From Alphaproteobacteria bacterium (GTDB taxonomy: Bacteria; Pseudomonadota; Alphaproteobacteria; Rs-D84; NBLK01): a stretch of DNA of 36,705 bases. Positions 23,105 to 32,492 of this stretch are shown here, piece by piece. Location: positions 1 through 36,705 of the forward strand of contig JAFGVS010000008.1 in assembly GCA_016937865.1 (NCBI GenBank), written 5' to 3'. The translations under genes and the position numbers were made by a program. The notes below the pieces were generated by a model that was given only the letters and a program-made list of their open reading frames with translations, was not told the origin of the DNA and did no database searches. The stretch's first letter is position 1. Every line of letters begins with the position of its first letter.

Positions 23105-23178
23105 TGGAGCGGGTAGAGGGAATCGAACCCTCATAGCTAGCTTGGAAGGCTAGTGCTTTACCACTAAGCTATACCCGC
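23105..23178 (-). tRNA. tRNA-Gly (anticodon TCC), CCA encoded
   Basis: GCGGGTATAGCTTAGTGGTAAAGCACTAGCCTTCCAAGCTAGCTATGAGGGTTCGATTCCCTCTACCCGCTCCA; CTAGC-CTTCCAA-GCTAG anticodon arm and GGTTCGATTCC T-arm. Confidence 0.95.
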
Positions 23179-23255: not shown

Positions 23256-25391
23256 TTAGTTCCCGCCCGCATCAATAATTTGGCGTCGCTTATGGTTTTC
23301 CACCAAAAAAGGTGGAAGGGTGTCTGCTGGAACAGGGCCGGAGCAGCCACGATCATAAACTTTTTTCTTAATGGTTTCATCTTGGTAGTGCAAAGGGGTA
23401 TCTGCTTCGATCGGAACATTTGGTCGACCTTCATAAATAATCAGCTGTTTTCCATAAGGCAAGGACATGATTTTTTTCTCTTTGTATAATTCCTCTTTAA
23501 TCAGCTTGTCGGCGCCGCCTTCAAAACTAATAATTCCTTTTGGGTTTTTATCGACAGTATCTTTCCACGCACTTTTTTTGCCAATCATTTCAGAAAAACG
23601 TTTCGCAGACAAATTATTGTTTTGACGTAAAATAATTTTGGCCGCCGTCGAAGAGAAAAGGGTTTCCACATGTTGTTCGCTGTATTTATGAATAATCTGG
23701 TTCATGTCTTGTGCAATTAAAAGGTAAGACACTTTCTGGCCACGACCAATATCTGGCCCCCGCATAACGGCATCCATCTTAGGCAAGACAGGAAATTCGT
23801 CAACCACAAACAAAGTCGGATATGGACCTAATTTTTCACCTTTATAAACATTTTCAGGTTTATTAGCAATTAAGAATAAGGACATCAACTCAATAAAGAT
23901 TCCGGTAATGGGTGCCAAGGCAACGGCGTGCACTTGATCAATACTAATATAAACCGTTACCGGTTTCATTTTCCTATCTCTTGGATCCCGCATACCCCGA
24001 AGGTCTTTAAAGTGGAAATCACTATGGGATGTTCTGGCACGCACGGCAGAATTGGTAAAAATATTCAGGTTTGTGGAAACGGTCGATAGAATAGATCCAC
24101 GTTCTTTGTCTGGTGTGTTGGCAAGATCGGTAAAAGAGGTAAGGGCTTTTTTGGCATAACCAAAACGCTGAACTTCTTTGACGGCGTTTGCGAAAACAGC
24201 CTTCATGCCGTCAGTCATCGCAGCCATTTGATCCCCTTGTTTTTTGCGTTCATCAATTTCACGGGACACGGCATTTTTGGCTTCGGTAAGCCAATCAATC
24301 ATCATCGGGATACAGGCTTCATGGCCAATCCAATTTTTGGGAATATCCTGCCAAGTTCCAACAGGAACATAATTTTCGGCCGTAATTTTACCATCGCGCA
24401 AAAGCTGTTGCGCCCCTTCAGCCAACGCATCTTCCATTTTTTCATAATAACCGTCCAGCAATCGAGCGTCTTCACTATCAAAAGTACCATCTTTTAAACG
24501 GTTAAAGAAATAATCATTCGCGCGGGCACGCTCGGTTTTGGAAACAATATAATGAATCATCCCGGCGAGGGCTTTTCGACCAGAATTAACCCAATGCGGA
24601 TCGGCGCTGCCTTTAGGTTCTTCGATTAAAATACTAATCATGCTATCAACATACAAATCGCGAGAAGGGCCAGAAGCGGGAATGGCATCCGGAGCTAAAG
24701 GATTCCAGCTGGGGTGATAAATGCCAGCCTCTGGATCGTCTTCGGCGCCCCAATTGAGGGTAAACGTAATCCCTTTTTGGGATCGGTATCCACTGGTCAT
24801 ATTGGCAACTTCAGGTTTTGGATCATGCACAATCATAGAAACATCATCACACTCTGTGATTGTTGGCACAACAATACCAGACGTTTTACCTGTTCCTGGG
24901 GGCGCAAAAGCCATCACAGAAAGAGTATCTTTTAATTTTAGGAACGTTCCTTCGAATTTCCCCAGCACAGTAATAAATCCTTTATGCAGCCCCCATTCTT
25001 CAACGTCTTCCATTTTCGCTTTGCGGGCAACACCGTCAATCTTTGGATACATATCATGTGGATTTGTGTTTAAAATAATAATCCGTGCATAGGGAAATGT
25101 CGCCATTGGGATAAAAGGAATCAAGTGGAAAATATCAGGGCCTTTTAAAATAGATTGCGGCAAATAATAGACGTAATATTTGACTAAAATAACACCATTG
25201 GTTTCCCAAACCTTCTGGATAAATTTTATAAAATAATCCCAGGATCCCGCGTGGAATCCATAGCGGAGCATTTGTTCTAATGGAACGGCAAGAACCATCG
25301 TCAAAAAGACGATCGCAAAATAGAAGGCCCATTGGCGTATAACCCAATAGGTTCCTCTGTTTTTTTCTCCAAATTCTTCGCTAAATCCCAT
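23256..25391 (-). CDS. VirD4/TraG-like type IV coupling protein
   Basis: N-terminal TM segments; Walker A APPGTGKTSGIVVPT; Walker B LFVVDEFPVL; LIAQDMNQI; HVETLFSSTAAKIILRQN. Confidence 0.88.
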   Translation of the reverse strand: MGFSEEFGEKNRGTYWVIRQWAFYFAIVFLTMVLAVPLEQMLRYGFHAGSWDYFIKFIQKVWETNGVILVKYYVYYLPQSILKGPDIFHLIPFIPMATFPYARIIILNTNPHDMYPKIDGVARKAKMEDVEEWGLHKGFITVLGKFEGTFLKLKDTLSVMAFAPPGTGKTSGIVVPTITECDDVSMIVHDPKPEVANMTSGYRSQKGITFTLNWGAEDDPEAGIYHPSWNPLAPDAIPASGPSRDLYVDSMISILIEEPKGSADPHWVNSGRKALAGMIHYIVSKTERARANDYFFNRLKDGTFDSEDARLLDGYYEKMEDALAEGAQQLLRDGKITAENYVPVGTWQDIPKNWIGHEACIPMMIDWLTEAKNAVSREIDERKKQGDQMAAMTDGMKAVFANAVKEVQRFGYAKKALTSFTDLANTPDKERGSILSTVSTNLNIFTNSAVRARTSHSDFHFKDLRGMRDPRDRKMKPVTVYISIDQVHAVALAPITGIFIELMSLFLIANKPENVYKGEKLGPYPTLFVVDEFPVLPKMDAVMRGPDIGRGQKVSYLLIAQDMNQIIHKYSEQHVETLFSSTAAKIILRQNNNLSAKRFSEMIGKKSAWKDTVDKNPKGIISFEGGADKLIKEELYKEKKIMSLPYGKQLIIYEGRPNVPIEADTPLHYQDETIKKKVYDRGCSGPVPADTLPPFLVENHKRRQIIDAGGN

Positions 25392-25458
25392 GTATGATTT
25401 CCTGAGCCTTTAATGATCAAAAGAAGTATAGCAAAAAACACCGGAAGAGTAAAGAATC

Positions 25459-25488
25459 TTGACGCAAAGATATTTTTTTTTATAAAAT
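25459..25488 (+). promoter_or_regulatory. putative serS promoter
   Basis: TTGACG with TATAAA (N16) or TAAAAT (N18). Confidence 0.6.
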
Positions 25489-25494
25489 GTAAAT

Positions 25495-25554
25495 ATGATA
25501 CACGTAAAAAAGCGTTTTATTGTTTCTTTTTCATCATCCGCCATGCGCGGATAG
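25495..25554 (+). promoter_or_regulatory. candidate Ser-codon leader peptide of serS (MIHVKKRFIVSFSSSAMRG*)
   Basis: ATG 6-8 nt downstream of -10; TCT TTT TCA TCA TCC run; hairpin 25536-25541/25547-25552 overlapping its end. Confidence 0.5.
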
Positions 25555-25650
25555 ACATTTCATTTTTATTTATATACACTAGCACCATATTTAAATTTTG
25601 CCCCCGGGTTTCATCCCCGCAGAGGCTTAGATGCATAAGGAAGAAAAACC

Positions 25651-26928
25651 ATGTTAGATAAAAACTACATTTTAGAAAACGTTGAAAAAATTGAAACCTC
25701 AGCTAAAAACAAAGGGTTCAAGGTTGACCTGAAAAAAATCATAACGCTCGGCGACGAAATCGCAGCGTTGAAAACAGAGCATCAAAAACACTTGGCGGAA
25801 AAAAACCAATTGTCTAAAAGCATTCAAAATGCGAGCGCAGATGAGCGTCCAGCCATGATTGAAAAGTCCAAAAAAGCCGGAGAAAATGCAAAAAAGATTG
25901 AATTGGACCTGGAAACAAAAGAGGTGGAATATACAGAACTGATGTTGCATGTGCCACAAGTGCATTTCGATGATGCTCCTATTGGCAAAGACGATACAGG
26001 GAATGTTGTAACGAAAACCGTCGGCGAAAAAACCAAATTCGATTTCGAGCCGAAAGACCACTACACATTGTTGGAAGAAAATGATTGGGCAAACTTTAAT
26101 ATCAGCGAAATCACAGGACCACGCGCATACTCTTTAAAAGGAAATGCTGCCCGCTTGGAACTCGCGATCCACCAATTCGTTTTGGATAAACTCATGGATA
26201 AAGGTTTTACGATGATGACGGTGCCGGCCTTGTGTAAACCACAGGCGATTTTGGACGCTGGACATTTTCCGGGCAGTGATATCGGCGCCTTAGAAAGCGA
26301 CGTGTATTTTTTAACCGGGACAGATTTATGTTTGGCGGGAACGTCAGAGATCGTGTTAAACAGCTTGCATCGTGGGGAGATCCTGGAAGAAAACCAATTG
26401 CCAAAACTCTATGCGGGATATTCACCGTGCTATCGGAAAGAGGCTGGTGCCGCTGGGAAAGATACCCGTGGATTGGTCCGTGTACATCAATTTTCAAAAG
26501 TTGAACAATTTGTGTATTGCAAGCCGGAGGAATCTCAAAAATATTTTGATAAGCTACTAACAACACTAGAAGAAATTATGATGGATTTAGAATTGTCGTA
26601 TCAATTGTTAGAGGCGTGTACCGGCGACATGGGATTTAATAAAATGCGAATGATCGATGTAGAGGCATGGGTGCCAACGCAAAATAAATACCGCGAATTG
26701 GGCAGCTGTTCAATGATTGGGGATTTTCAGGCACGTCGCACAAACACGCGGTACCGTGCGAATGCGGATGGCAAAGTCCATTATACACATACGTTGAATA
26801 ATACCGGGATAGCAACACCGCGTGTGTTGGTACCTCTGTTGGAAAACCACCAAACAAAGGACGGAGATGTCAAAATCCCAACCAAACTCCAACCGTATAT
26901 GCACGGCCTAAAAACCCTAAAAGCATAA
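25651..26928 (+). CDS. serS: seryl-tRNA synthetase
   Basis: coiled-coil N-domain, GTSEIVLNSLHRGEIL, CYRKEAGAAGKDTRGLVRVHQFSKVEQF, ELGSCSMIGDFQARRTNTRYR. Confidence 0.97.
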   Translation: MLDKNYILENVEKIETSAKNKGFKVDLKKIITLGDEIAALKTEHQKHLAEKNQLSKSIQNASADERPAMIEKSKKAGENAKKIELDLETKEVEYTELMLHVPQVHFDDAPIGKDDTGNVVTKTVGEKTKFDFEPKDHYTLLEENDWANFNISEITGPRAYSLKGNAARLELAIHQFVLDKLMDKGFTMMTVPALCKPQAILDAGHFPGSDIGALESDVYFLTGTDLCLAGTSEIVLNSLHRGEILEENQLPKLYAGYSPCYRKEAGAAGKDTRGLVRVHQFSKVEQFVYCKPEESQKYFDKLLTTLEEIMMDLELSYQLLEACTGDMGFNKMRMIDVEAWVPTQNKYRELGSCSMIGDFQARRTNTRYRANADGKVHYTHTLNNTGIATPRVLVPLLENHQTKDGDVKIPTKLQPYMHGLKTLKA

Positions 26929-28997: not shown

Positions 28998-30122
28998 TTA
29001 CATTTGAGCGGTAAGTTGTTCTTGCATTTCAAAGGTTCCAAACACAACCCATGCAATCATAACCGAGATCAACAAAATCGCAAAAGAGTTCAAAATACCG
29101 GCTGTTCCTTGGATGCGCAGAATCGCTTCATCCAAATAATCATTTCCGATTTTTTCAAGTGCGTCTTCAAAATTATCCAGCTCGGCATAAATTTCCAAAT
29201 CGCCAATCGTTTCTTGATCTGGGAAACCAAAGCCCGTGTGTTTCAGGGCTGCCCCAAGGTTTTCCCCTTCACTCATATAATCGAGTGTTTTATCAATCCG
29301 TTCTCGCAAATACCATGTCGCGTCATCGCGTAAACTCGCCATCCCTTGGGTGATAGGGGTTCCGGATTTTGTCAGCGCCGCCAAGGATAAAAGCCAGCTC
29401 ACCCCGGTAAACAAACGATATAAATTCCACGGTGGAAATTTATCAAAAGCAACCCGGAGGCGTCCCGTCCAAAAAGGTAAAGAAAGGGCCATCAAAGAAA
29501 TCGCACCAATCAGCCCGAGGGGAAACATCCACCAATAAACGGCAATGGCATCAGACACGGAGACCAGCGTGCCCGCAACCCCGCTCCAAACAATATCACG
29601 CCCGGCGGCTTCAACCAAAGGGGGAACCAAATACACGGCAACCATAATCAAAATTAAAAAAGTTAAAAACAACAAAAACAGAGGATACGCAATTGCGCCA
29701 ATCAGGGGGGCAATAATACGTTCTGACCCTTCGGCAACATGAATCACGTGGATCAGGGCCGTTTCCAACCGGGAAACATCTCCAACGGACAACATCAACC
29801 GTTCCCGCATAGGCACCCAACCACGCAAGGCGTGCGCAAAAGTTTCCCCATTTTCCAATCGACCCTGCCAAACAGAAATCGCAATAGCGAAAGGCTCATT
29901 CGTTTTTTTTCCGTCTTTGGACGCAACCATCCATAAACGATCCAACGCATCCATCAGTGTAAAATTATTCCGCAATAACGCGGAAAGTTTCCGATAGATT
30001 TTTAAACGATGGCGCCCCGAATGCTTTACAAGCAGCTTCGCAAACCATTTTTCTGTCGCACCAAAATTCCGATTGTCATTCCGCATGAACAAAAGGATAC
30101 CATATTTACGAAGAGACGGCAA
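28998..30122 (-). CDS. pilR: type IVb pilus inner-membrane platform protein (PilR / GspF family)
   Basis: T2SF-type hydrophobic segments, SLAALTKSGTPITQGMASLRDDATWYLRERIDKTLDYMSEGENLGAALKHTG; start may be TTG 30122 or ATG 30086. Confidence 0.82.
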   Translation of the reverse strand: MPSLRKYGILLFMRNDNRNFGATEKWFAKLLVKHSGRHRLKIYRKLSALLRNNFTLMDALDRLWMVASKDGKKTNEPFAIAISVWQGRLENGETFAHALRGWVPMRERLMLSVGDVSRLETALIHVIHVAEGSERIIAPLIGAIAYPLFLLFLTFLILIMVAVYLVPPLVEAAGRDIVWSGVAGTLVSVSDAIAVYWWMFPLGLIGAISLMALSLPFWTGRLRVAFDKFPPWNLYRLFTGVSWLLSLAALTKSGTPITQGMASLRDDATWYLRERIDKTLDYMSEGENLGAALKHTGFGFPDQETIGDLEIYAELDNFEDALEKIGNDYLDEAILRIQGTAGILNSFAILLISVMIAWVVFGTFEMQEQLTAQM

Positions 30123-30812: not shown

Positions 30813-32492
30813 TTAATAAACGTCGGGTTCATTGATGAAGCCACACCACCGTTCGATTTCATCAATGCCAATGATTCCTTGCAGCATTTTTTCAACCGCG
30901 GCTTCGCGCAAGGTGCGACCATGTAAATGATTGATCCAATATGAAACGGCATCTTTCGTGCGACCTTCTAACATAATGGTTAAAAATTCGGTATCGGGTA
31001 AGATAACTTCAAAAGCGCCAACACGGCCAACAATCGCTTTCCCGCCACACGCTTTGCATCCTTCGCCTTTGATATAGGCAAGATCTACCGCTTCTTGGCC
31101 ATAGGCCTCTAAGAGTCGGTCGTGGATCGGGTTGTCTTTATTCTCAGAAAGCTTTTTACGGCACTCTGGGCAGAGTTTCTTAAACAGACGCTGTGAGATT
31201 AATCCTTTAATTAAAGAAGCATCGCGGAGCTTAAATTCTTCAACCCCCATGTCTTGTAAACGGGTTAGGATGGCCGGCGCGGTATTGGCATGAAGGGTCG
31301 TCCAAACATTATGCCCCGATAAGGCACCTTTAAAAGTCAGCTGGGCGGCAGAAAGAGTCCGGATTTCCCCAACCATCATCGCATCTGGATCAGATCGCAA
31401 GGCGGCAGCCAACGCAGCGGTAAAGGCCTTGTCTTTTTCTTCTTCGTTTTGGGTGTTGGTTACCGGCATTTGCTGGGCGCCATCAATCGGATATTCGGGT
31501 GGATCTTCCACCGTAATTAAATTAATTTCATAATGGTTTTCTTGCAATAATAAATTCATGTTTCCGGCCAAAGTCGTACTTTTACCAGATCCAGTTGGAC
31601 CAGCAATCACACAAAGACCTGTGGAAAAATGACGCATACGGTTAAAGCGGTCGGTTTCATATTTAGTGGCCCCTTTACTTTCCAAAGCCAGATCAGTTTC
31701 TTTGTTGGCGTATAAAAGTCGCATGACCAAATATTGAGATCCAAACGCGATAGGGTTAAATTGTAGACGGATCGCCAACACACTGGAAGGCAAATATAAA
31801 TCTTTCGAACCACGCAGGGGTGTTTCGCCTAATTTTTGGGCAGATTGGAATTCATTTTGGGCATAGTTACTATCAGAAATATCGGCACTGGCAAACACAG
31901 AGCGCACAAAGGCTTCGCCCCATTGTGAATCGTATTCATAGGTTTTTTGCATGGTTCCGTCAATGCGGAAAAATACACGGGTGGTTTCACCAACAATGAC
32001 ATGGACGTCGGATACGCCTTTCTCCGAAGCATTGGCAATAATATCGACATAATCTTTTTGAATTTCGTTATTAAAATCATCCCCGAAAGGCACATTAGAA
32101 TCACGCTTTTTCGCATTTTCTTTGTAAATCCCATTTAGGATTCCAAGGGAAGTATAAATGGGTTTTTTTAAAGGAAGGCCTCGCTGTCTAACCAAAGATT
32201 CAAAACTAAGAACCCGTCCGTCATAGCGATTCGACTGGGAAACGACAAAAGAACCATCAGAAAAATAAGCAAGTAAATTTCGGGTGTCGCGTGAAACAGA
32301 AAGGGTTTCACCTTCATCGGAAAGCAGTTTGTTGTTGTTGGAAAAAAGACGGGATAAAATATCTTTTTCGTCTAAGCCTTTCCAAGGATCAACAGAAGAT
32401 GGAGTGGATGTCTCCGGAGGCGTAACATCCTTTTTTTCAAGAGTGTTGTCTACGTCTTTTGCAGCAATGGCTTCAGAGGAAGGAATCTTCAT
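30813..32492 (-). CDS. pilQ: type IVb pilus assembly ATPase (PilQ / GspE family)
   Basis: Walker A AGPTGSGKSTTL, VEDPPEYPI, VGEIRTLSAAQLTFKGALSGHNVWTTLHANTA, CPEC..CKAC zinc motif. Confidence 0.92.
   Translation of the reverse strand: MKIPSSEAIAAKDVDNTLEKKDVTPPETSTPSSVDPWKGLDEKDILSRLFSNNNKLLSDEGETLSVSRDTRNLLAYFSDGSFVVSQSNRYDGRVLSFESLVRQRGLPLKKPIYTSLGILNGIYKENAKKRDSNVPFGDDFNNEIQKDYVDIIANASEKGVSDVHVIVGETTRVFFRIDGTMQKTYEYDSQWGEAFVRSVFASADISDSNYAQNEFQSAQKLGETPLRGSKDLYLPSSVLAIRLQFNPIAFGSQYLVMRLLYANKETDLALESKGATKYETDRFNRMRHFSTGLCVIAGPTGSGKSTTLAGNMNLLLQENHYEINLITVEDPPEYPIDGAQQMPVTNTQNEEEKDKAFTAALAAALRSDPDAMMVGEIRTLSAAQLTFKGALSGHNVWTTLHANTAPAILTRLQDMGVEEFKLRDASLIKGLISQRLFKKLCPECRKKLSENKDNPIHDRLLEAYGQEAVDLAYIKGEGCKACGGKAIVGRVGAFEVILPDTEFLTIMLEGRTKDAVSYWINHLHGRTLREAAVEKMLQGIIGIDEIERWCGFINEPDVY

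Follow-up and report, generated by a model that had tools for sequence, protein, structure and literature searches.

Leader peptides are known for few amino acids and few synthetase genes. In the E. coli pheST attenuator, a leader peptide rich in Phe codons and led by a Shine-Dalgarno site controls the synthetase operon by means of a classical terminator, and the T-box reads uncharged tRNA directly, without translation. The upstream ORF uORFC-8-2, found before cysS in Rhodobacterales, carries tandem Cys codons (positions 14-15) in its first stem, is followed by a second, terminator stem with a U-run and has been proposed to sense tRNA charging (PMC8632094). The leader peptide trpL of Sinorhizobium meliloti is leaderless, its transcript starting at the ATG, and contains consecutive cognate codons (PMC7298713). 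No mention of serS is made in the comparative surveys PMC1262725 and PMC2965389, and no Ser/serS leader peptide was found in the literature searched; the synthetase-attenuation survey of Lopatovskaya et al. 2010 (cited in PMC4833913) lay outside that literature and a prior mention is possible.

Here we describe a candidate Ser-codon leader in front of serS of an alphaproteobacterium. The nearest described element is uORFC-8-2, which is likewise a short upstream ORF of an alphaproteobacterial synthetase gene with tandem cognate codons in the first stem (at serS the stem starts inside the last cognate codon or beside it); however, it concerns Cys and cysS rather than Ser and serS, its U-run terminator stem is absent at serS and no leaderless start is stated for it. 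S. meliloti trpL is similar in being an alphaproteobacterial leaderless leader peptide, the transcript start at serS being predicted from promoter spacing, but it serves a biosynthetic operon and uses a terminator/antiterminator pair that serS does not have. The pheST leader shares the cognate codons at a synthetase gene and differs in its amino acid, its Shine-Dalgarno-led start and its classical terminator, whereas the T-box (RF00230) also senses tRNA charging at synthetase genes but has no translation step, and none is present at serS.

Results

The serS locus and its candidate leader

The window, i.e. the whole 36,705-nt stretch of DNA that was analysed, corresponds to contig C38 in a genome of 852 kb, and the closest named relatives of its serS come from MAGs of uncultured Alphaproteobacteria. 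The features around serS are collected in Table 1. The original prediction had placed a probably leaderless Ser-rich leader peptide before this gene, and all of its coordinates (promoter, ORF and stem) were found to be correct when the sequence was read again. The codons of the leader ORF are ATG ATA CAC GTA AAA AAG CGT TTT ATT GTT TCT TTT TCA TCA TCC GCC ATG CGC GGA TAG. Since the ATG sits 6 nt past the -10 box, a transcript from that promoter has no room for a Shine-Dalgarno site ahead of it, and this spacing suggests that the serS message begins with the leader ATG or beside it, i.e. that it is leaderless.

Table 1. Positions in the window of the serS leader and of neighbouring features.
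Feature	Position	Strand	Basis
Sigma-70-type promoter, TTGACG / 18-nt spacer / TAAAAT	25459..25488	+	promoter scan, 10/12 matches
Promoter boxes TTGACG; TAAAAT	25459-25464; 25483-25488	+	read from sequence and promoter scan
Leader ORF MIHVKKRFIVSFSSSAMRG and stop, predicted leaderless, 19 codons	25495..25554	+	sequence; in-frame homologues at 38 other serS
Conserved Ser pair TCA TCC (codons 14-15), proposed stall site	25534..25539	+	leader comparison
Hairpin ATCCGC (25536-25541) / GCGGAT (25547-25552), loop CATGC	25536..25552	+	folding
UTR, leader stop to serS Shine-Dalgarno site	25555..25636	+	without conserved structure
serS Shine-Dalgarno site AAGGAAG	25637..25643	+	read from sequence
serS, seryl-tRNA synthetase	25651..26928	+	TIGR00414, 418.9 bits, E 2.3e-125
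Long gene divergent from the serS leader	23256..25391	-	translation
tRNA gene between secDF-like genes and the divergent gene	23108..23178	-	RF00005, 77.7 bits

The hairpin, which had been noted to overlap the end of the Ser run, was significant in comparison with shuffles (-8.8 kcal/mol, z -2.8), and it begins with the final nucleotide of the first Ser codon in the pair. Taken in full, the 186-nt leader folded no better than shuffles (z -0.81), the significance being limited to the small hairpin. A scan of the + strand downstream of the leader revealed no U-tract terminator, in agreement with the original prediction. Rfam gave no match in 25400-25650, and hence no T-box (RF00230) with its specifier loop and antiterminator, and no serS was found in viral contigs. 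Judged from their translations only, the minus-strand products of 23256-25391, 28998-30122 and 30813-32492 (coupling-protein-like, inner-membrane-platform-like and ATPase-like) resemble components of type IV secretion or pilus machinery.

Conservation of the leader in relatives

serS was detected in 76 of 79 relatives, and the upstream regions of 75 serS genes of the order, whose genomes measure about 0.5-1.1 Mb, were read. The Ser leader element was present at 39 of these 75 in one layout: a start codon 6-12 nt past a -10-like box, 11-15 codons leading in frame to a nearly invariant Ser-Ser pair, a GC hairpin that starts at the last Ser codon, and a stop; with this spacing all 39 are predicted to be leaderless, as had been proposed for the window. 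The distance from the ATG to the Ser-Ser pair was 33 nt (n=29), 36 nt (n=5), 39 nt (n=2) or 45 nt (n=2), so that every change in leader length preserves the frame; the 39th leader (G003) is weaker and keeps a single Ser at the position of the pair. About half of the serS genes of the order have no leader, and many of those follow another gene or have a short UTR.

The expectation that the Ser codons would be conserved was borne out. The pair was written TCA TCC in all 29 leaders that have the most frequent length and TCG TCC in two other genera. Examples of the element are the leaders of the only congener, G001 (MIIGKFKFNSFLSSAMGG), and of G004 (MEINLSLFVVSRMSSPVLG), G026 (MKFVFLSLRHSSSPFGVRI) and G035 (MKFSFVFFSSFSSSPLGE). 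Additional Ser codons (TCT, TCA, AGT, TCG, TCC and AGC) are concentrated at codons 7, 9, 10 and 11, and the Ser at codon 9 is written as AGT, AGC, TCA or TCG. Ahead of the invariant pair, 1.92 in-frame Ser per leader were counted against 0.82 expected from shuffling, with 0.61 and 0.39 in the other two frames, so the enrichment of Ser codons (UCN and AGY) is confined to the reading frame. The coding signal in the leader body is weak (codon-position differences 113/105/128), and near-invariance is restricted to the codons adjoining the hairpin.

The 39 leaders share ancestry and their counts are thus not independent, the serS statistics being further limited by draft genomes and a single congener; the arguments from frame, from spacing and from comparison between genes carry most weight, being the least affected by how many related sequences are counted. 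On these comparisons, the Ser leader before serS is beyond chance, and it is well supported that the sensor would be a ribosome that reads the Ser codons at the 5' end of the serS mRNA.

Among 29 other members of the class, one (G109, from another family) has a Ser leader, MLKAFFNIAVSSKSSPSGV followed by a stop, at its serS (L214). No clear leader was seen upstream of the other 28 serS genes, many of which lie downstream of a tatC-like gene; in L213, among these other class members, the start is poorly placed. As G109 falls outside the order by its kinship label, the element may predate the order. A covariance model (R1) run across 290 genomes of the class gave matches in this order only; its filters were so strict that the copy in the window itself was missed, and absence elsewhere is therefore unproven.

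Cognate leaders at other synthetase genes

For 15 different synthetase genes, the upstream sequence was read in up to eight genomes, and the own genome was examined in the stretches around its synthetase genes. Promoter-proximal ORFs rich in cognate codons, and leaderless by position, were found in the order before thrS, hisS, trpS, valS, ileS, metG and lysS; the own genome has cognate leaders at serS, trpS, ileS and lysS. Examples are MNNICVFFTTTTTTPAGV and, in G001, MLILDKILFTSTTTPMGL for thrS; MCNKNVFFVIFHHARAGEY for hisS; MVKTKKTFSKFTWWRF (own genome, spotted by eye, its -10 box having failed the automatic filter) and MINISSYFSFLVWWRR (G010) for trpS; MTHSYTVFVVVNVVA (G004) for valS; MFNQKIIYRIPCGGQ (own genome) and MKQTTIIIIK (G035) for ileS; MRMYK for metG; and MSLKRKQLKKFFAA (own genome) for lysS. 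Thr leaders occurred in 7 of 7 thrS upstream regions left whole by contig ends.

A blind test was carried out in which each amino acid was scored in promoter-proximal short ORFs and the cognates were permuted. The mean z was 1.31 and none of 100,000 permutations was as good, with thrS and serS as the largest contributors; argS, pheS, proS, glyS and tyrS gave no signal in up to eight genomes. Control by Ser-tRNA charging, which the original prediction had inferred at serS, is the natural reading of the leader and is strengthened by the parallel Thr, His, Trp, Val, Ile, Met and Lys leaders.

Several further features were seen at these genes. In thrS of L143, L153, L163 and L189-L192, four to six Thr codons adjoin an ACCCC/GGGGT hairpin. 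The ileS and metG genes of the f6 genomes (L150, L152, L170, L172, L197-L200) have Ile leaders ending in IIIIK before the stop and very short Met leaders (MRMYK and stop), some of them directly 3' of a tRNA gene. T-box-like leaders also occur in the order, at tyrS of the own genome (L138, C14; RF00230, 38.5 bits) and of G004 (L206; 90.4 bits) and at aspS of G035 (L180; 37.3 bits), all scoring below the gathering score of 93. In the T-box-like leaders at aspS of G012 and G026 (L178, L179), a GGGTGGCACCGCG motif was seen by eye only.

Two hairpin architectures

In one architecture, seen at serS, thrS, hisS, trpS, valS and ileS of the own genome, a GC hairpin starts within or adjoining the last cognate codon and lacks a U-tract behind it. 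In 57 leaders of these six genes the mean stem energy was -8.2 kcal/mol, compared with -1.6 kcal/mol in control segments, and about 4 of the 8 nt after the stem were T. The serS hairpin as an ordinary terminator was rejected by contrast with true terminators of the same genomes and by the T content after the stem. The stems vary by gene (CCCC/GGGG, CGCCC/GGGCG, GGCG/CGCC, GTCGC/GCGAC) while their position is constant, and this provides the best evidence for selection on the hairpin itself; relatives have a hairpin in the position seen in the window, and so do five other synthetase genes. Covariation in the serS hairpin was uninformative, since there is too little variation; in addition, the G000/G001 stem is out of register in the alignment. 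By the comparisons made, the hairpin adjoining the last cognate codon is the sole conserved structure of the serS leader.

In the other architecture, at lysS, f6 ileS and metG, GC hairpins come after the cognate codons and mostly have a U-tract. The own lysS leader (L181, C58) can form an antiterminator, TGCGATGTT/AACATCGCA, against a terminator, CATCGC-AATA-GCGGTG, with eight T behind it; by sequence it is a textbook attenuator, which argues that ribosome-mediated control exists in the organism.

Discussion

We propose, with a probability of roughly 60%, that serS is controlled by a cis-acting sensor of Ser-tRNA charging in which a ribosome on the leader occludes the hairpin. Transcription would begin with the leader ATG or beside it, and the 19-codon leaderless ORF would be translated by a ribosome. 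Under a shortage of charged Ser-tRNA, this ribosome would presumably stall at the last Ser codons and, with one of them in the A site, it would cover the 5' arm and the loop, as expected from the usual ribosome footprint. The last Ser codons lie at the 5' foot of the hairpin, so a waiting ribosome would keep the hairpin open, and serS would then be expressed, the direction of this effect being the one we infer. When Ser-tRNA is plentiful, the ribosome would leave at the stop just past the hairpin, the hairpin would close and serS expression would fall. The near-invariance of only the codons adjoining the hairpin matches what occlusion requires. As for the readout, early arrest or termination of transcription at or just past the hairpin, without a U-tract and possibly assisted by Rho (the UTRs have more C than G, 407 vs 242), is what we prefer as most likely, with mRNA decay as its main rival.

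Other explanations place the switch in the UTR. In the original prediction, a stall at the Ser codons would switch the 3' arm of the hairpin (25544-25552) to pairing with 25613-25621; read as classical transcription attenuation, this would prevent a competing downstream structure or terminator. This 9-nt pairing and the competing fold with 25605-25608 can both be drawn in the window and the own lysS leader follows such a plan by sequence, but neither has comparative support: the 25613-25621 segment is missing from G001, G004 and the f6 genomes, the competing element is missing from G001 and G004, and G001 and G004 have 61 and 69 AU-rich nt between leader stop and serS. Across 39 serS UTRs, which are AU-rich, no conserved structure was detected relative to shuffles (mean z -0.37). 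The comparison of upstream regions thus bore out the Ser codons and the local hairpin of the original prediction and not its long-range paired segments; with the U-tract terminator also absent, we regard classical attenuation as decidedly improbable. Only slightly less improbable is a translational attenuator, in which the U/C-rich leader would pair with the serS Shine-Dalgarno site and a stalled ribosome would release it. Such pairing appears in many minimum-energy folds, and masking the ribosome site raised the mean accessibility of the Shine-Dalgarno region from 0.46 to 0.55; however, cognate pairs had no advantage over swapped ones (p 0.38), and shuffling the codons gave equally good pairing. 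A second promoter or hairpin in the UTR, where some relatives have TTGCGAA..TTCGCAA palindromes, was also rejected, there being no general signal and shuffles doing as well in 58% of serS cases. Palindromes of the type TTGCGAA-N4-TTCGCA lie between leader and serS or thrS in some f6 genomes (for example L024, L105, L118, L016, L143, L189), and some of these are spaced from a TATAAT like a -35 box.

It is also conceivable, though rather unlikely, that serS is set by mRNA decay, a stalled 5'-proximal ribosome or the closed hairpin altering the access of ribonucleases. That conservation is limited to the 5'-proximal ORF and the hairpin, in front of an AU-rich, unstructured UTR, would fit this explanation, which does not account for a hairpin adjoining the last cognate codon. 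The inverted repeat might finally not be read by a ribosome at all and act as a DNA operator or an RNA site for a protein, with an incidental ORF. Its stem core CCCC/GGGG is indeed nearly invariant within one family, but the ATG spacing keeps the frame, Ser is enriched in frame only, and thrS, hisS, trpS and valS show equal geometry with their own cognate codons and different stems, which makes this explanation highly improbable.

As Shine-Dalgarno pairing, UTR structure and a terminator all fail and the hairpin remains, direct occlusion of the hairpin by the leader ribosome is the simplest reading; with neither a terminator nor a conserved UTR structure, the effector step is missing from this occlusion model. 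Mutually exclusive terminator and antiterminator structures, as in attenuators of the trp/phe type, lie before the own lysS and not before serS, and a sequestered Shine-Dalgarno site released by stalling, as in the erm type, was not found at serS by the swap comparison. Tandem cognate codons in the first stem, as in uORFC-8-2, are present at serS, without the U-run second stem and at a gene other than cysS. Lacking the terminator/antiterminator pair and the Shine-Dalgarno sequestration, the serS leader would be a variant of ribosome-mediated attenuation that belongs to neither type.

More tentatively, and with somewhat more doubt than confidence, we suggest that serS, thrS, hisS, trpS, valS and ileS share a separate class of attenuator in which the occluded hairpin is the whole switch, and that an order-wide system of leaderless peptides and T-boxes sets synthetase levels amino acid by amino acid. 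This six-gene class would work without an antiterminator, a U-tract terminator or Shine-Dalgarno sequestration. The occlusion idea lends itself to direct tests by reporters, since several genes share the geometry although their codons and stems differ.

The Ser leader is one of a group of leaders that together serve eight or more synthetase genes in an alphaproteobacterial order whose members are mostly uncultured and have genomes of about 0.5-1.1 Mb. If the reading is true, a one-hairpin architecture may suffice for attenuation, and leaderless ORFs shorter than 25 codons would let lineages with reduced genomes retain feedback that is specific to each amino acid. To judge from these leaders, such bacteria probably tune each synthetase by the rate at which its amino acid is used in translation.
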